A DNA stretch of 53,617 nt from Planctomycetaceae bacterium (GTDB lineage Bacteria > Planctomycetota > Planctomycetia > Planctomycetales > Planctomycetaceae). Under the pieces are notes generated by a model that was not told the DNA's origin, made no database searches, and saw only the letters and a list, made by a program, of their open reading frames with translations. The stretch covers positions 1 to 53,617 of the forward strand of contig JAGQPY010000004.1 of NCBI GenBank assembly GCA_020426485.1, in the 5' to 3' direction. A program made the position numbers and the translations under genes. Numbering within the stretch: the first letter of the stretch is position 1; every line of letters starts with the position of its first letter. Positions 3,541-47,748 of this stretch are shown here, in pieces.

Positions 3541-3740
3541 CAGGGATTCCGCCCAGCGCGCGACGCGAGTTGAGAGCAGGAAGGCGAAGAGCGAAGAAAT
3601 CGCTTCTGTGATTCCCTTCCGACGGGGGAAGGCAGGGATTCCTGCCGCGCAACGATTCTGTTTCCCGCCCGAGAGCAACCCAAACGGGAACGGTCGGTGA
3701 GGGGACGCCGAACTGCGGGAAGAGGCGGGCCAGCTGAGAA

Positions 3741-3825
3741 GAGATTCTGATCGTTGAACCCGATGCCGGAGGCGAGGTTGATCACAGCCCGGACGGGCCT
3801 CGCCTGCGGCATCGGGTTCAACAAC
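3741..3825 (-). repeat. Dispersed palindromic repeat, family G, copy 1
   Basis: The arms at 3753-3777 and 3798-3822 are complementary over about 24 bases (core GTTGAACCCGATGCCG) around a 20-base loop. The reverse complement matches 34051-34137 over a conserved stretch of about 45 bases containing ATCAACCTCGCCT and CGGCATCGGGTT. A shorter match lies at 33198-33226. This identifies a dispersed non-coding repeat family and makes a simple terminator less likely, although the palindrome could also stop converging transcripts. Confidence 0.75.
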
Positions 3826-3899
3826 TCATTCTCCCTGCCCGAAAAAGCTGGCACCACTGCACGATCTGTTTCGAACGTCAGCGTTTCCGCAGGAAAAGC

Positions 3900-3988
3900 A
3901 ACGTAGCAGAAGTCGTGAGGAACGTAGCAGAAGTCGTAAGACGACTGAGGGTATGGCCCAGCTTCCGACGCTCACGAATTCGGCTACG
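3900..3988. repeat. 21-base tandem repeat with inverted partner
   Basis: Two adjacent units (3900-3920 and 3921-3941) share AACGTAGCAGAAGTCGT. A third, diverged unit lies in inverted orientation at 3970-3988 and contains CACGAATTCGGCTACG. Together they can form a long imperfect stem. The block lies inside the spacer portion of the family F/G composite module and is absent from the other two copies. Confidence 0.6.
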
Positions 3989-4020
3989 AAATCTCATCAC
4001 AGCGTTGGGCACTGCGCTTA

Positions 4021-5595
4021 TCAGGCAGGCTTCGCTCCCGGCTGACCGTTTTCAATCACGAAGGCCGCGGGAGTTTCCAGAGGCGAACCGGGGCGGTCGA
4101 CATATGGAGTCACGCGAAAGTACGACGTCCACTGTTGGGGAGTGACTTTACAGGAAACATAACCTCGATTGCTGTTGTACCAGCGAACGAAGTCATTCCG
4201 GCGAGCCGCTCTTTCGTATTCGGGGATGACGTTTCCTCCGTTGCCACCGGATGTCATCGAAGTGCCAACCAGTTCTGTTCCCACCACCGGCGACTTCGGA
4301 TCCCGGAAGTTCAGTTGCAGATCGTTGACCCAGTTCAGATGAATGTCGCCGGTCAAAACCACCGGATTCGGAATCTGACGTTCATGAAAGAAGTTCAGTA
4401 GTCGGCGACGGCTGACATCGTAACCGGGCCACTGGTCCATGCTGTATCGCTGCTCGTCGCCTTCGCCTCTGTTCAGCGGAGCCATCATGACCTGCTGGGC
4501 GAGCACATTCCATGTGGCCTGAGACTTCAGCAGGCCCGACATCAGCCAGCCTTCCTGACGTGCTCCCAGCATCGTTGCTCCTGGGTCAAAAACCTTGCCT
4601 TCCATTGGCTTCTGATGATCACCATTTGGCTGGTCCGTGCGATACTGCCGAGTATCCAGGACATGAAACTCCGCCAGACGACCGTACGAGCAGCGACGGA
4701 ATAACTGCATATCCGGCCCCCGCGGGAAAGACCGACGACGCAGCGGCATGAATTCATAATAGGCCTGATAGGCGTTCATTCGGCGAGCGAGGAATTCTTC
4801 CGGGGAGACGCCCTCCTCTTCTGACACGAGACTGGCGTAGTTGTTGTCGAATTCGTGATCGTCCCATGTGACCAGCCATGGAAACAGCCGGTGGGTGTCC
4901 TGCAAAGTCAGATCCAGTCGATACTGAGCATACCGCGTTCGGTAATCGTTCAGGCTGACGATCTCGTTTCCAATATGCTTTCGAGGCCCTCGATCCGTTC
5001 CGCCGTATTCGTAGATGTAGTCTCCCAGATGAATGACCAGATCCAGATCCTCCTGCTGCATGTGCGGATAGCCGTTGAAGTATCCGTATTCGTAATGCTG
5101 GCAGGATGTGAACGCAAACCGTACCTGTTCCGGGGCGGAATCAGCAGCAGGCGCTGTTCGTGTCCGGCCAACCGGACTGGTTTCGGTTCCAGCGTGAAAG
5201 CGATAGAAATACCACCGGTGCGGATCCAGACCGTCGGCTTCAACGTGCACGGAATGCCCCAGTTGAGGCATCGCCAGTGCAGTGCCCCGGCATACCGGTT
5301 GAGCAAACGACTCATCGGCCGCAACTTCCCAGGTGACATTAACCGGCCGATCCGGCATCCCGCCGCCATCCAGAGGTTGTGGTGCCAGCCGAGTCCAGAG
5401 CACAACACTGTTCGGCTCCGGATCCCCTGAAGCCACGCCCAGCGTAAACGGGTAACCGCTGAACGACGGCGACTGGACGACCGGTTGATCGGCTCGCAAA
5501 GCAATCGATGGAATGGCCGACACCGCGGCGACGTATTTCAGAAACCTGCGACGTTCGACTCCGTATCGACGACCGGACAGAATTGTGCGGGCCAT
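4021..5595 (-). CDS. phoD: PhoD-type alkaline phosphatase/phosphodiesterase, Tat-exported
   Basis: PhoD-family enzymes are secreted metal-dependent phosphomono- and diesterases that release phosphate from organic esters. The protein has a twin-arginine signal (ERRRFLKYVAA, then a hydrophobic stretch and AxA-like region), a PhoD N-terminal beta domain (TLGVASGDPEPNSVVLWTRL) and a metallophosphatase core. Core motifs are VIHLGDYIYEYG, VTWDDHEFDNNY and VVLTGDIHLNWVNDL, which hold the metal-binding Asp, His and Asn residues. ATG 5595 is preferred because AAGGAGA lies 6 bases upstream. An ATG at 5613 would place this ribosome site inside the gene. It is monocistronic here. An 18-base direct repeat lies 45 bases upstream and might be a regulator site. 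Confidence 0.92.
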   Translation of the reverse strand: MARTILSGRRYGVERRRFLKYVAAVSAIPSIALRADQPVVQSPSFSGYPFTLGVASGDPEPNSVVLWTRLAPQPLDGGGMPDRPVNVTWEVAADESFAQPVCRGTALAMPQLGHSVHVEADGLDPHRWYFYRFHAGTETSPVGRTRTAPAADSAPEQVRFAFTSCQHYEYGYFNGYPHMQQEDLDLVIHLGDYIYEYGGTDRGPRKHIGNEIVSLNDYRTRYAQYRLDLTLQDTHRLFPWLVTWDDHEFDNNYASLVSEEEGVSPEEFLARRMNAYQAYYEFMPLRRRSFPRGPDMQLFRRCSYGRLAEFHVLDTRQYRTDQPNGDHQKPMEGKVFDPGATMLGARQEGWLMSGLLKSQATWNVLAQQVMMAPLNRGEGDEQRYSMDQWPGYDVSRRRLLNFFHERQIPNPVVLTGDIHLNWVNDLQLNFRDPKSPVVGTELVGTSMTSGGNGGNVIPEYERAARRNDFVRWYNSNRGYVSCKVTPQQWTSYFRVTPYVDRPGSPLETPAAFVIENGQPGAKPA

Positions 5596-5613
5596 AAACG
5601 GTCTCCTTGACAT

Positions 5614-7415: not shown

Positions 7416-7883
7416 GCACGGCTGGCAGCACCGGGACTGGCTTCCGCAGCGGAACAGAACATCTGTGAAATCGCTTTCGGGAAGCTGTTGATGTCCTGGT
7501 TTTTCAGAAACCCGCGACATTCTTGGTTTGTGCCGGTGTATCCTTCGATTCGCGCACCCGCCAGGTGGTTCCTCCGGTCTCATCTCAAAGCGGTCTGAGA
7601 CCCTGAATTTGGAAACACTGCTGGCTTTGCCGGTGTTTTCGGATGCAGTTCGTTTCCTGAAGTGAGTCCGGACAGGAGTGGGCCAGACAATTGCTTTACT
7701 GCTCACCTGACGGGCGTTGTGCTGTTCGTTGCTCGTCTTCACTGCAATCGCTTTGCCCGGAATGACTGGTCCGGTCGACGGGAACTCGCGAATTGTTCGG
7801 GGAACCGCGTGGCCGCCAGTTTTTCTGCAAAAAACAGGCGCTATAATGCCGCCACATTTGATGGACAGAATTGGAACCCCCTG
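7416..7883. other. Intergenic region before aspS
   Basis: No gene is supported in these bases. A perfect TATAAT is present at 7842-7847. The remaining short open frames lack a domain and a ribosome site. Confidence 0.5.
7842..7847 (+). promoter_or_regulatory. Putative -10 element of the aspS promoter
   Basis: TATAAT matches the housekeeping -10 consensus exactly and lies 143 bases before the aspS GTG. The sequence 17 bases upstream is T-rich but a poor -35 match. A transcript starting near 7854 would carry the palindromic element at 7884-7963 in its leader. Confidence 0.4.
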
Positions 7884-7963
7884 ACAAAACCGGGACAGGC
7901 TCCTGCAACGGGGCTGAAGCCCTGTGAAACACCAGTCGGGAAAGGTGGCTGTCCCGGTTTTGT
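7884..7963 (+). repeat. Dispersed palindromic repeat, family F, copy A (aspS leader)
   Basis: The arms 7884-7898 and 7949-7963 pair perfectly over 15 bases (ACAAAACCGGGACAG and its complement) around a 50-base interior with a smaller GGGGCTGAAGCCC hairpin. The reverse complements of 32994-33075 and 33861-33940 align to it over nearly the whole length, sharing GTGAAA, GTCGGGAA-like and TCCCGGTT segments. It lies between the likely aspS promoter and start codon, so it would be transcribed as the leader. Confidence 0.75.
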
Positions 7964-7989
7964 TCTCTATTGATTTTCGGAATCAGACC

Positions 7990-32843: not shown

Positions 32844-32880
32844 TTGGAGTGCGACGACTTGTCGCCGCTTTGGATTGAAA
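32844..32880 (+). repeat. Dispersed palindromic repeat, family H, copy 3
   Basis: The core GTGCGACGACTTGTCGCCGC matches the copies at 47427-47460 and 47709-47748 apart from one base that disrupts the palindrome. The flanks TTGGA and TTTGGATTGA are also shared. Confidence 0.65.
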
Positions 32881-32993
32881 ACACCGTCTGCGGTCGTGTG
32901 AGAAACGATCCGCAAAAATCCCCCCGAAGGCTGGTGGACGCCCGAATGAACTCGGAGCACGGTTCCGCGTTGATGATCCCATAAAACCCAAAA

Positions 32994-33075
32994 CACAACC
33001 GGGATAAGCGCTCTTCCTGAGACGCTTTTCACCGAGTTTCTGCCCCTTTACCGGAGACAGTCCTGGTTTTGTTGG
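32994..33075 (-). repeat. Dispersed palindromic repeat, family F, copy C
   Basis: Its reverse complement aligns along its length with copy A at 7884-7963 and copy B at 33861-33940. The outer arms (ACAACCGGGA and TCCTGGTTTTGTT) pair imperfectly. It is followed after about 120 bases by a family G fragment, the same order as at 33861-34137. Confidence 0.7.
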
Positions 33076-33197
33076 GACGCCTTCGAGCGGTCGGTCAAAT
33101 GGGGTGTGGGCAGTGTCCAACGTCGTGAGGGTTTTCGAACCAGTAAAGGGGTACCTTTGACCCGATGTCGCAGAGGCGGCCGTGCAGATTCGCGGTT

Positions 33198-33226
33198 GCT
33201 CGCCTGTGGCATGGGGGTTCAACGAA
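33198..33226 (+). repeat. Dispersed repeat, family G, partial copy 3
   Basis: TCGCCTGTGGCAT followed by GGGGTTCAACGA matches the right arm of the family G palindrome at 3798-3822 with few changes. The left arm is not recognisable. Confidence 0.5.
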
Positions 33227-33528
33227 GTAAACGCATCATGATGCGGCCCATGCCTGTTTCCACCATTTATCCCTTGCTGATGATTCGTTAGCCTGCCGTT
33301 GTATTCGTGCAGGAAAGCCATGCGGTCGCCGCGAAGCTGGAGGAAGGCAAAGCGACGTATCGACTCATAGTGGACAAGCCGACACAAGAATCCCACCGAT
33401 GTTCGTCCTGCCGAGACGATCATGACAGTGCACGGCAGAACGCGGCAATTGGTGTCCATTGGAATCTTCCGGCAAAATCTCCTATGGTGACCGGATCTAT
33501 CCACCGGCATTCAGGGAGACAGGACCCC

Positions 33529-33756
33529 ATGGCGAAGAATCAATCATGCTCAGATTGCGGGGAGCCGTTGAAGTTGTCAGAAGACAGATTCAGCGGCCGA
33601 TGCTTCAAGTGTCGAAATCAGCGCAACCGACGCGGCCGCAAGGTGAATCGTCCGACGCCTCAGAAGGCGAAGGCCAGTAAGCAGGATGATGCCCCGGAGA
33701 AACCGAATCCGCCCAAAGACCCGGACTGGTGGAAGCGTAAAGTCGGTCGGCAATGA
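33529..33756 (+). CDS. Small zinc-finger-like basic protein
   Basis: The 75-residue protein has a four-cysteine zinc finger in its first 30 residues (CSDC and CFKC). A very basic stretch follows (RNQRNRRGRKVNR), then a Lys/Pro/Asp-rich tail ending PDWWKRKVGRQ. The size and charge suggest nucleic acid binding. The ATG follows CAGGGAGACAGGA, an acceptable ribosome site. A longer frame back to a GTG at 33307 has no conserved character. No known family is recognised. It sits between two composite repeat modules, with no partner gene on the same strand nearby. Confidence 0.65.
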   Translation: MAKNQSCSDCGEPLKLSEDRFSGRCFKCRNQRNRRGRKVNRPTPQKAKASKQDDAPEKPNPPKDPDWWKRKVGRQ

Positions 33757-33860
33757 CAAGGCACGACGGATACCTGTGAACGTTCAGCAGACGTCCGGCC
33801 GCACGTTTTTTCCATGGCAGGAGGCAGCAACAGGAGCCGGCTGCGATTGAACGCGAACAG

Positions 33861-33940
33861 TAAAACCGGGACAAGCACCCTTCCCGACGGATATTTCACT
33901 GGGTTTCTTCTCCGTTGGGGGAACCAGTCCCGGTTGTGTC
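33861..33940 (-). repeat. Dispersed palindromic repeat, family F, copy B
   Basis: The reverse complement is closely similar to the aspS leader element, sharing CAACGG, GTGAAA, GTCGGGAA and GTCCCGGTTTT in the same order and spacing. The outer arms AAAACCGGGAC and GTCCCGGTTGT pair. Confidence 0.75.
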
Positions 33941-34050
33941 AGCAGTTCTGAGTGGGGACAGCCCAACGTGGTGCTGAATTTGAGCTGGAAAATGCTGGCG
34001 TTCGAAGCAGATCGTGCCTTTGCTTCAGTACTTATCAGCCCGGGAAAACC

Positions 34051-34137
34051 GTTTGTTTAACCGGTGGCCGAGAGGCCGGGCTTTTCCTGACTGCGATCAA
34101 CCTCGCCTTCGGCATCGGGTTAAACGATCTGAATCTC
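34051..34137 (+). repeat. Dispersed palindromic repeat, family G, copy 2
   Basis: It matches the reverse complement of 3741-3825, best over ATCAACCTCGCCTTCGGCAT and the following GGGTTAAACGATCTGAATCTC. The left arm is more diverged than in copy 1. Confidence 0.72.
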
Positions 34138-34162
34138 GGCACGGCGTTGGGGGCAGCGCCTG

Positions 34163-35440
34163 TCAGGAAGAGATGGCTTTATCGGCGATGTCGGTTCGGT
34201 TCCAGCCACCGTCCCATGAAATGCAGTTGACGGCTTCGTAGGCTCGCTGTTTGGCTTCGGCAATGGTGCTGCCCAGTGCCGTGACTCCCAGAACTCTGCC
34301 GCCATCGTTGACGACTTCGGAGTTTTTCAGGAGCGTTCCGGCGTGGAAGACCTTGGCGTCGGAAATTTCAGCCGCTTCTTCCAGTCCCGTGATCCTGAAG
34401 CCTTTGGAATAACTGCCGGGGTAGCCCTTTGAAGCCATCACGACGCAGACGGCAGGGCGTTCATCCCAGTCCAGTCCTTCCAGCTCTTCCAGACGACCGG
34501 AGGCCGCCAAAGACAACACCTGAGCCAGATCAGACTTTAATCGCATAAGCACCGGTTGAGCTTCGGGATCACCCAGGCGAACGTTGTATTCCAGAACCTT
34601 CGGTCCGGAATCTGTCAGCATCAGTCCGGCGTAGAGCACTCCGGAAAATGGATGTCCTTCCACTCGCATGGTGTGAACCGTAGGAATCAGAATTCGACGG
34701 ATGATTTCGTCCATGATTTCTTCGGAAACCAATGGCGCGGGGCTGTAGGCCCCCATGCCGCCGGTATTCGGTCCGCGGTCGCCGTCCTGAGCTCGCTTGT
34801 GGTCCTGCGACGTTTCCAGGGGGATAATTGTGTCACCGTCGACGATGGCCAGGATGCTGGCTTCCTGCCCGTCCAGGCAGTCTTCAATCACAACTTTACG
34901 CCCGGCCGCGCCGAACAGATCTTTGACCAGCATGTCATTGACCGCGGCTTTGGCTTCGGCATGATTGCGACAAACGTAAACGCCTTTGCCCGCCGCCAGC
35001 CCGTCGGCTTTGACAACCAGTGGCCCATCTTCCATGGAATCGATGTAGTGTGTCGCATCTTCAACGCGCGAGAAGCAGCGGAAGGCAGCGGTAGGGACGC
35101 CTGCCTTCTTCATGATTTCCTTGGAAAACGACTTGCTGCCTTCCAGACGAGCGGCTGATTTTGAGGGACCGAAGATCTTCAGTCCCTGCCGTTGAAACTC
35201 ATCCACAATGCCCGCCACCAGCGGCGCTTCCGGTCCCACGACCGTCAGGTCAATGCTGTTTTGTTTAGCAAAACTCAGCAGTCGTCCGATGTCATCGGAC
35301 GCAATCGGAACGTTTTCTGCATCGATGGCCGTTCCTGCATTTCCCGGTGCACAAAAGACTTTGCTGACGCCCTGAGACTGAGCCAGCTTCCAAACCAGCG
35401 CGTGTTCTCGCCCACCCTGACCAACCACCAGAATCTTCAT
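34163..35440 (-). CDS. purD: Phosphoribosylamine--glycine ligase
   Basis: PurD joins phosphoribosylamine and glycine with ATP in de novo purine synthesis. From ATG 35440 the protein has 425 residues, the usual length, and starts MKILVVGQGGREHALVWKL, the standard PurD N terminus. The ATP-grasp core is visible in PLVVKADGLAAGKGVYVC, DCLDGQEASILAIVDG and GMGAYSPAPLV, and the metal-site segment in LEYNVRLGDPEAQPVLMRL. GAAGG lies 10 bases before the ATG. A longer frame to 35566 adds non-conserved residues. The gene stands alone, without other purine genes. Confidence 0.97.
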   Translation of the reverse strand: MKILVVGQGGREHALVWKLAQSQGVSKVFCAPGNAGTAIDAENVPIASDDIGRLLSFAKQNSIDLTVVGPEAPLVAGIVDEFQRQGLKIFGPSKSAARLEGSKSFSKEIMKKAGVPTAAFRCFSRVEDATHYIDSMEDGPLVVKADGLAAGKGVYVCRNHAEAKAAVNDMLVKDLFGAAGRKVVIEDCLDGQEASILAIVDGDTIIPLETSQDHKRAQDGDRGPNTGGMGAYSPAPLVSEEIMDEIIRRILIPTVHTMRVEGHPFSGVLYAGLMLTDSGPKVLEYNVRLGDPEAQPVLMRLKSDLAQVLSLAASGRLEELEGLDWDERPAVCVVMASKGYPGSYSKGFRITGLEEAAEISDAKVFHAGTLLKNSEVVNDGGRVLGVTALGSTIAEAKQRAYEAVNCISWDGGWNRTDIADKAISS

Positions 35441-35780
35441 CGTTCCGAAACCTTCTTTGTCGTTTTCATTGTGGACGCCGACCGGATGCCGAAGCGGTAG
35501 ACCGTCAGAACTCCACGTTTTCATCAGTTTTCGCGTCGCAGGATACTGATCCCGGCGGGGTTTCAAAGTCAGGACGCGAAATGCTCAATTCAGATTTCGA
35601 GCCGGGTAATTTTCGGAATTTTCAATTCCTGCGGCACGATGCCCACAGGCCGCGAGCTTTCGAATACAAAGCACTCGCGCCATTGCACGCCGCGGTGGAC
35701 AGGTCAGGAAATGAAGAGCAAGTGCACCAGTGCCGGTGGGCAACGCAGTTAGGGGCACAGCGGAACGCCAAAATGCTCTG
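35441..35780. other. Intergenic region upstream of purD
   Basis: These 340 bases separate purD from the VWA gene, both on the minus strand. No gene, repeat or clear promoter was seen. Confidence 0.5.
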
Positions 35781-42108: not shown

Positions 42109-42183
42109 GTTGACGAAGCGACCAGCGGGAGCGTCTCGGCGCCTGTGACCGCCGATCTCAATCAACACTCCACGCCACCGGGT

Positions 42184-42200
42184 CAAGGGCGCTGCCCTTG
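42184..42200 (-). terminator. Hairpin directly after argG
   Basis: CAAGGGC and GCCCTTG form a perfect 7-base stem around GCT, touching the argG stop codon. No U-tract follows, so efficient termination is uncertain. Confidence 0.4.
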
Positions 42201-43418
42201 TTAGTAGCTGCGAGGTCGAACGGAACCTTGAACTCGATAGGGCAGTCCCATGATTCGCAGGAAGCCTTCCGCGTCCGTTTGGTTGTAGTCGCCACCTTTT
42301 TCCATGCTGGCGATTTCGGCATTGTACAGACTGTTGGGAGATGTCCGGCTGCTGACTCGAATATTGCCTTTGTATAACGTCAGCTTAACATCGCCCGTCA
42401 CGGGTTTCTGGGCCTCGCGAATAAACGCCAGCAATGCGTCCATCTTCGCACAGTACCAGTGACCGTAGTAAACCATCTCGGCCACGACCGGGCTGAGTTG
42501 ATCTCGCAGATGCGTCAGGTCGCGATCCATGGTCATTTGTTCGATCGCTCGATGAGCCGTATACAACAGCGTCATGCCGGGAGCTTCGTACACACCGCGA
42601 CTCTTCATGCCCACGAAGCGGTTTTCAATGATGTCAATGCGACCGACGCCGTTGCGTCCGCCGATGGTGTTCAGAGTCTCCACAATCTTTGCAGCGGAAA
42701 GTTTTTCGCCATTGACGGCCACCGGAATGCCGGCATCAAAGCTGATGGTCAGGGACTCTTCTTTATCCGGAGCTTGCTGAGGAGAAACCGTCATCCCGAA
42801 ATCAATGACAGTTTCTCCATCGACCGTTGGGTCTTCCAGATCACCCGCTTCGTAGCTGATGTGCAGACAGTTTTCGTCGCTGGAATACGGCTTGCTGGCA
42901 CTGGCTTTCACAGGAATATTTTTTTCAGCGCAGTAGTCCAGCATTTCCTTGCGGCCGGGAAACTTGCTGCGGAACTCTTCCATTCGCCACGGTGCAATAA
43001 TTCGCACCGTCGGGTCCAAAGCTTCGGCGGCCAGCTGAAACCGACACTGATCGTTGCCTTTGCCGGTGGCTCCATGAACAAATGCCACGGCACCGACTTC
43101 GCGAGCACGCTGCAGGCAGACCTTGGAAATCAACGGACGAGCGATTGAGGTGCCCAGCAGGTAAATGTTTTCGTATTTCGCCTGCCACTGGAGGGTGGGA
43201 AATGCGATTTCGCGGCACATTTCTTCACGAGCATCCACCAGCTCCGAAGACTTGGCCCCAATGTCCAGCGCCTTCTTCAGAATGGCGGCACGGTCTTCGC
43301 AGGGTTGCCCAAGTTCCACATACAAACAGTGGACATCGTAGCCTTTGTCCTGAAGCCAGCCCACCAGGACTGAGGTGTCCAAACCGCCGCTGTACGCCAG
43401 CACCACCGATTCTGCCAC
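42201..43418 (-). CDS. argG: Argininosuccinate synthase
   Basis: ArgG condenses citrulline and aspartate with ATP in arginine synthesis. From GTG 43418, with GGGAGAG 7 bases upstream, the protein has 405 residues, the usual length. It shows the PP-loop SVVLAYSGGLDTSVLVGWL at the start, then ENIYLLGTSIARPLISK, FVHGATGKGNDQCRFQL and the C-terminal helix region. An upstream TTG at 43442 would add eight non-conserved residues and include the ribosome site. No other arginine gene is adjacent. Confidence 0.97.
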   Translation of the reverse strand: MAESVVLAYSGGLDTSVLVGWLQDKGYDVHCLYVELGQPCEDRAAILKKALDIGAKSSELVDAREEMCREIAFPTLQWQAKYENIYLLGTSIARPLISKVCLQRAREVGAVAFVHGATGKGNDQCRFQLAAEALDPTVRIIAPWRMEEFRSKFPGRKEMLDYCAEKNIPVKASASKPYSSDENCLHISYEAGDLEDPTVDGETVIDFGMTVSPQQAPDKEESLTISFDAGIPVAVNGEKLSAAKIVETLNTIGGRNGVGRIDIIENRFVGMKSRGVYEAPGMTLLYTAHRAIEQMTMDRDLTHLRDQLSPVVAEMVYYGHWYCAKMDALLAFIREAQKPVTGDVKLTLYKGNIRVSSRTSPNSLYNAEIASMEKGGDYNQTDAEGFLRIMGLPYRVQGSVRPRSY

Positions 43419-43878
43419 GATTGATCTCTCCCGACCGTCCAAAAACTGTCACGCGTTTTGAAACCTGCACCGCACGGATGATCGGCCGAAGGATCACAAA
43501 CCTGTGACCACATTCCATCCGAAAAAAACGTGAGTTTGCGATCGGCAATCTTACAGGTCCATTGCAGCACTGCCACGCCAGGTCCGGGCGTTTTCAAAGG
43601 TTGGAACAGAATACCCGACCTCCGGATAATCGGCGTTTCGGGCGTATTTTTCCGATCACGAGGAGCGTTCGGAGATCCGGGGAGGGTTTTGCAACGAAGA
43701 CGTTCCCGATACGATGATGCTCGGCCCCGCGACGGATCGGTTGCTCTTTCGCGCTTATCGACCGTTTTGATTCATGCCGACCGCGTCGTCCGGATTTGGT
43801 CCTTTGCGCGGCTGAATGGATTTCCGATTCGGCAGTCCGAAGTTCCCAATCATTCACTATTGCGGCTGAGACAGCATT
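43419..43878. other. Divergent intergenic region between argG and the ECF sigma gene
   Basis: The 460 bases should hold promoters for both flanking genes. No gene, strong hexamer pair or repeat was recognised. An ARG-box-like operator for argG was looked for by eye and not found. Confidence 0.45.
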
Positions 43879-47426: not shown

Positions 47427-47460
47427 TGGAGTGCGGCGACTTGTCGCCGCTTTCGATTTT
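47427..47460 (+). repeat. Dispersed palindromic repeat, family H, copy 1
   Basis: GCGGCGACTTGTCGCCGC is a near-perfect palindrome. The flanks TGGAGT and TTTCGATT are shared with the other copies. Confidence 0.7.
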
Positions 47461-47708
47461 TCTGAAAGATGATCGCCGAAGCGCGCCTGTTCATTTCCGG
47501 AAGCATTCCCAAAAATTCAGGAGGTAACGACTCTTCGTTGAATCAGGCGGTCGGCAGGATCGAAGGTCCCAAAGCCTGCCGCGGAATTGGTAAAACTTCG
47601 GTGCAACATCTGAGGCTGAATTCTTCAGAATTCCGAGCGATTCAGATTTCAGATTCATTCTCAGCTCAGTCAGTTCCTACCTGCCGTTTGCGGAAACTCG
47701 ACGTATTG

Positions 47709-47748
47709 AATCAATGCCAAAGCGGCGACAAGTCGCCGCACTCCAAAA
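47709..47748 (-). repeat. Dispersed palindromic repeat, family H, copy 2
   Basis: The reverse complement reads TTTTGGAGTGCGGCGACTTG then TCGCCGCTTTGG, identical to copy 1 across the core. It faces copy 1, so the two form terminal inverted repeats around 47461-47708. Confidence 0.7.

Follow-up and report, generated by a model that had tools for sequence, protein, structure and literature searches.

The window analysed here, 53,617 nucleotides of a Planctomycetaceae bacterium (assembly GCA_020426485.1, contig JAGQPY010000004.1), contains two places at which a palindromic repeat (F), a short spacer and a second palindromic element (G) follow one another. G is very probably a non-autonomous MITE of the IS4 family that is moved in trans into hairpins, with the order F, spacer, G resulting from insertion beside F. 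The observations that carry this reading are the inverted ends of G, its target-site duplications, intact empty sites, and an insertion sequence with the same ends in Rubripirellula obstinata. In the proposed mechanism, an IS4-type transposase would bind the CAACGCCGTGAAG ends, excise G and join it to a symmetric, GC-rich 9-bp target. That target would often be the axis of a hairpin, namely the H repeat at gene ends, a J-type repeat or, in one case, F. F, spacer and G would come to lie together when G enters a hairpin standing beside F, and no composite would be copied. The copies in this genome were presumably moved in trans by a transposase of the class found in R. obstinata, the source copy being perhaps lost or unassembled by now. 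An unexplained composite repeat would then resolve into a nested structure with a target rule, and a specific transposase class would be tied to a large population of planctomycete MITEs, numbering hundreds of ends in the R. obstinata genome.

Ends and interiors of the G element

G is a gene-less element of about 120-310 bp, with inverted ends of about 18 bp (CAACGCCGTGAAGAGATT). In the window's own genome (6.3 Mb, a draft of 933 contigs that is 86% complete) the 20-mer CCCAACGCCGTGAAGAGATT occurs 138 times at up to three mismatches and in both orientations, as compared with no occurrence of the reversed pattern. The ends form convergent pairs, mostly 118-374 bp apart, and genome-wide alignments of G copies terminate in the inverted repeats. 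The interior adjoining most ends is either of the G type or of a second type, G2 (GTAGCCGAATTCG...), with other interiors in a minority. Shared ends around differing interiors are what non-autonomous elements would be expected to look like.

Bacterial MITEs have inverted ends of 15-30 bp and a length of roughly 70-300 bp, lack coding capacity and are moved in trans (PMC3733652). G is likewise short; its inverted ends measure 17-18 bp, the sequence enclosed by them yielded no transposase, and a target-site duplication, 9 bp long in three genomes, is present. It resembles Nezha, RUP, NEMIS and others in size, inverted ends and non-coding character, but has other ends and a host of another phylum, and its mobilisation in trans is something we infer.

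Three G copies lie in the window (Table 1). The target duplication of copy B is worn, GGGACAGCC and GGGGCAGCG matching at 7 of 9 positions, while none is recognisable in the flanks of copy C. The latter carries the interior of the second MITE type at approximately 3887-3989 (GTAGCCGAATTCG / GAACGTAGCAGAAGTCG repeats). Two GAACGTAGCAGAAGTCGTGAG-type units within 3887-3989 are part of this interior, and that type has the same ends as G.

Table 1. Coordinates of repeats, G copies and adjoining genes in the window.
Feature	Position	Strand	Basis or remark
F repeat, copy A	32989-33077	+	F profile, E = 1.8e-20
F repeat, copy B	33859-33949	+	F profile, E = 2.3e-25
F repeat without G	7876-7964	-	F profile and within-window alignment
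F repeat without G	7417-7504	-	F profile and within-window alignment
J half (third hairpin repeat), AAATGGGGTGTGGGCAGTG..., target of copy A	33098-33117	+	also found intact as GGGGTGTGGGCACTGCCCAC
G copy A, degenerate, left end CAACGTCGTGAGGGTTTT, palindrome 33152-33226	33118-33247 (end coordinate approximate)	+	
G copy B, 186-bp MITE	33964-34149	-	genome-wide alignments, inverted-end scan, coordinates
G copy B, left end CAACGTGGTGCTGAATTT, degenerate	33964-33981		inverted-end scan
G copy B, right end CAACGCCGTGCCGAGATT	34132-34149	-	inverted-end scan
Internal G palindrome of copy B, GTTTAACCCGATGCCG...	34052-34128	-	fold z = -4.0
Target duplication of copy B, left, GGGACAGCC	33955-33963		flank comparison
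Target duplication of copy B, right, GGGGCAGCG	34150-34158		flank comparison
H-like half TGACAGGCGCTGCCCC, starts at purD stop, interrupted by G copy B	34150-34165	-	
purD-like gene (named from its sequence as a phosphoribosylamine-glycine ligase)	34163-35566	-	ORF list
G copy C, 279 bp, with an intact right end at 3990-4007 and a degenerate left end	3729-4007	+	
G palindrome of copy C, inverted	3750-3825		
H-like half TGATAAGCGCAGTGCC, starts at phoD stop TGA, interrupted by G copy C	4008-4023	-	
phoD-like gene (named by reading the sequence)	4021-5613	-	ORF list
Intact H (empty site), at argG-like stop	42115-42203	-	
argG-like gene, ends TAA, opens intact H	42201-43442	-	

Target duplications and insertion sites

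A scan of GTDB genomes found G ends in R. obstinata (462 against 7 in the control) and in an uncultured Planctomycetaceae MAG (G060; 90 against 7). In 58 close relatives, drawn from the family or class, they are absent save for single matches at chance level, so that orthologous empty sites cannot be used. The flanks were compared by taking the element as CAACGCC...GGCGTTG and scanning duplication lengths of 7 to 12 bp, with re-paired (shuffled) flanks as control. Over 9 bp, flank identity was 0.80 compared with 0.39 for re-paired flanks in R. obstinata (z 9.4), 0.60 compared with 0.48 in the window's own genome (z 5.7, 0 of 1000) and 0.61 compared with 0.48 in the MAG (z 3.0). None of the lengths 7, 8, 10, 11 and 12 gave a comparable result in any of the three genomes. 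At the centre of the target, the two flanks agree as direct and not as inverted repeats. Target-site duplications, which the sequence-only reading had named as a trait to look for, are thus present for G. IS231A targets GGGN5CCC, which the G target may resemble; an 11-bp duplication of this form was ruled out here by the length scan in the three genomes, which gives 9 bp, the outer C and G being the element's own.

Direct evidence of insertion is provided by locus L114 (2070-2310), where a G element occupies the loop of an F hairpin and has one half of F on each side. The left flanks of G often read TRACAAGGGCTTCGCC and the right flanks GGCTTCGCCCTTGACCYGATGGCG. The empty site predicted from these, TGACAAGGGCTTCGCCCTTGACC, is found intact 75 times in the own genome at up to three mismatches, with no match in the control. 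An H half adjoins 61 of the 138 G ends (44%), as against about 1% of random positions per half. Thirteen ends fall in a second class of site, CTGAAAAAGGG, and 4 in a J-type hairpin, GGGGTGTGGGC. Copy A, too, is a degenerate element lying in half of a J-type hairpin, next to F. G prefers GC-rich symmetric sites (GGnnnnnCC), which it meets mostly at the axes of hairpin repeats. Outside the duplication, the target arms are more symmetric than random sites but no more so than re-paired arms; this is a consensus effect only and is not used as evidence.

The H repeat is anchored at stop codons

H is a dispersed repeat of about 88 nt, TRACAAGGGCTTCGCCCTTGACCCGATGGCGTGG...CGCTCCCGTTGGTCGC, seen in loci L153-L182, L264, L272, L280 and L286. 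A stop codon stands exactly before CAAGGGC in 34 of 49 H copies, the other two phases giving 0 and 1, and 23 of these 34 copies have at least 100 open codons upstream. When ten of the upstream frames were tested, six matched Pfam: DUF1501 (two), cyclophilin, HEAT repeats, PSD1 and pyridine nucleotide oxidoreductase. The anchoring also holds in the MAG. Because all three stop codons occur at H starts, the stop codon probably belongs to the gene and not to a fixed end of the element. Often, within about 5-30 bases past H, there is a second short palindrome, GTAGGTCCGGCTGTGCCGGAC, which resembles GTAG-tagged REP sequences (L153-L172).

In the window, the H-like half TGACAGGCGCTGCCCC opens with the TGA stop of the purD-like gene; this half is followed by G copy B and then by F. 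At the end of the phoD-like gene, the H-like half is followed by G copy C with its G2-type interior. MITEs with G-type ends also sit in H in the MAG, as in L264, where TAACAAGGGCTTCGCCC precedes and GGGCTTCGCCCTTGACCC follows the element. The anchoring of H at stop codons raises the question of how such a repeat is placed, and whether its interruption alters termination or mRNA stability of genes like purD and phoD.

An autonomous IS4-family relative carries the G ends

In R. obstinata, a 1.59-kb insertion sequence (L291, 774-2366) has CAACGCCGTGAAG ends on both sides of a gene for a 484-aa protein. The protein matches PF01609 (DDE_Tnp_1) at E = 4.5e-18 (66.2 bits, cut-off 23), and its best model by far is the NCBIfam IS4 model NF033592, at 109.5 bits against a curated cut-off of 115. 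Members of the IS4 family share the signature Y(2)R(3)E(6)K, and several are strongly target-specific (PMC2266710). The L291 motif YKKRWGIEIEFRGLK corresponds to Y(2)R(3)E(6)K and lies in the single 484-aa ORF; the ends, CAACGCC..GGCGTTG, begin with 5'-CA, and direct repeats of 9 bp, inside the range of about 8-13 bp expected for the family, flank the MITEs that have the same ends. L291 itself is a single copy and has no matching direct repeats at its own flanks. L296 (45% identity), L308 (38%) and L292 (31%) are relatives in which just one side has a matching end.

The window's contig contains no PF01797 or PF01609 match, which bears out the earlier remark that no transposase is nearby. Across the draft genome (933 contigs, 86% complete) a search for an autonomous copy found none. 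The six PF01609 matches, which are of the IS5, ISAs1, IS701 and another IS4 type, were considered as the source of G and rejected, their ends differing from those of G. On the strength of the shared ends, an IS4-family transposase like that of L291 is the likely source of G mobility. As a separate observation, another IS4-family element of the own genome (L188, 343-1882, G000:C134), with ends CCAATCCTGTTCGGCAC, lies within a palindrome, AATGAGCTGCGTCCC, and has direct repeats of about 10 bp. A motif resembling this palindrome, GGGGACGCAGCTCATT ... TGCGTCCCC, flanks a RAYT gene in L149.

L291 resembles the CA-ended IS4 subgroups (IS4Sa with ISRm22; IS4; IS231) in its DDE_Tnp_1 domain, YREK motif, single ORF, length of about 1.6 kb and ends opening with 5'-CA, and G shares with these subgroups direct repeats close to one helix turn in length. 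In contrast, CAACGCCGTGAAG is unlike the IS231 end consensus CAT...AA..TAA and does not fully agree with the -AATR of IS4, and the abundant form here is non-autonomous and planctomycetal. MIC231-type mobile insertion cassettes are a comparable system for G. ISRm22, an IS4-family element of Sinorhizobium meliloti, has all its copies exactly at the palindromy axis of a REP sequence (PMC1525189), and is the closest precedent for insertion of G at a hairpin axis. ISRm22 is autonomous, with about ten copies and 6-bp repeats, whereas the G MITE has some 140 ends and 9-bp repeats, and its main target H, unlike the REP target of ISRm22, is anchored at stop codons.

Folding and covariation of the G hairpin

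G could instead be a structured RNA family, or a hairpin that acts in cis in 3' UTRs, and have multiplied by duplication, with its inverted ends incidental. The 25-bp G hairpin has 8 two-sided changes compared with 2.8 in shuffles (1 of 500), its covariation is 0.094 compared with 0.078 in shuffles, and the copy B palindrome folds better than shuffled sequence (Table 1). In addition, same-group MITEs in another genome carry Rfam RF01687 motifs. However, the covariation is weak, with paired cells at 92% versus 91%, and arm-by-arm correction of DNA palindromes would give the like; in one copy, the fold of the outer 66 nt is not superior to that of shuffled sequence. Neither the window nor 20 loci of the own genome matched any Rfam model, and G occurs in both orientations and with target duplications. 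We therefore regard an RNA family, the option raised by the sequence-only reading, as unlikely.

The RF01687 motifs (Acido-Lenti-1 RNA) lie in MITEs of the MAG, about 320-350 bp long with G-type ends, each carrying one or two. The motif pairs are inverted and every match found is inside a MITE (L278 1248-1293 and 1398-1443; L262, L280, L323, L325, L260, L264). A broader reading would be that a planctomycete lineage of IS4-type MITEs invaded stop-codon-anchored hairpins genome-wide, rewriting the 3' ends of genes, and in one lineage carries copies of the Acido-Lenti-1 RNA motif. We put this forward tentatively, as a possibility that the present data leave on the doubtful side. If true, Rfam 'Acido-Lenti-1 RNA' would, at least in part, be the cargo of a mobile element.

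F and G are independent families

It had previously been proposed that F, spacer and G form a single unit, mobile or amplified, that was copied as a whole. The arrangement behind that proposal is real: F followed by a G-type element occurs twice on the plus strand, in like order, with similar spacing and within about 1 kb. The inverted third copy also stands, copy C matching copy B at E = 3e-21 in a search within the window, with a local alignment score of 140 that exceeds chance (no more than 35 for shuffled sequence). Copies A and B align locally with a score of 68, compared with at most 39 for shuffled sequence, at 65% identity over 110 bp, but this alignment is restricted to F and the bases just past it. 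The alignment of copies A and C is weak (score 49, shuffled 42), and copy A is strongly degenerate in its G portion. With no alignment to B past F and its immediate neighbourhood, and a weak one to C, copy A adds little to the evidence on G.

A genome-wide search with both modules returned matches of two main classes, F alone (query range approximately 8-95) and spacer and G alone (approximately 100-291), and no match covered both. Just 4 of the 116 G ends have an F copy no more than 150 bp away, and the one nested insertion, L114, where G is inside F, supplies two of these four counts. Two further F repeats in the window, overlooked previously, have no G (Table 1). F and G are independent families, which became neighbours where G inserted beside or within a hairpin repeat. 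Because no genome-wide match covers both and F is near so few G ends, the composite is an accident of neighbourhood, and its being one mobile or amplified unit is very improbable. Accordingly, the proposal of a non-autonomous mobile element holds for G, with its inverted ends, 9-bp duplications, empty sites and IS4 relative, and is abandoned for the composite.

Nor is the spacer a conserved part in its own right, as had been suggested. It consists of half of a target hairpin and the first bases of the terminal inverted repeat of G, and for this reason belongs with G and not with F; the sequence formerly given for it, GTGGGCAGTGTCCAACG, joins half of the J hairpin to CAACG, with which G begins.

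RAYT genes, integron sites and the F repeat

The remaining alternatives concern the machinery. G might be REPIN-like and moved by a genome-encoded RAYT (HUH tyrosine transposase). The genome does encode two PF01797 genes, so that the RAYT-like transposase envisaged earlier exists as a gene, and F looks REP-like and is present in other genera; F is, however, found around neither gene. Inverted ends with target duplications are a signature of DDE and not HUH transposition, and the G ends are carried by an IS4-type transposase, all of which makes movement by a RAYT hardly credible. Integron attC sites have core boxes of consensus RYYYAAC ... GTTRRRY, which the outermost seven bases, GCCCAAC ... 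GTTGGGC, resemble, but we attach next to no probability to G ends being attC-like recombination sites, as G is dispersed in both orientations and forms no cassette arrays, the outer CC/GG bases derive from the target, 9-bp target duplications are present, and identical ends flank a DDE transposase.

As for F itself, it is like REP sequences in being a short dispersed palindrome, with GGGACTGGCTCC/GGGACAGGCACC arms, that is also present in other genera of the family. Its arm has 88 matches in the own genome, as against 0 in the control, which agrees with a dispersed high-copy palindrome. Neither of the own-genome RAYT genes is flanked by F, and in three relatives the F arm motif is near only 2 of 24 RAYT loci. 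A further repeat of 27-36 bp, at 94-100% identity, was observed at 47427-47458, 47711-47746 and 32844-32878. The first two units are inverted and lie within 320 bp (47427-47746), and the third is near copy A.
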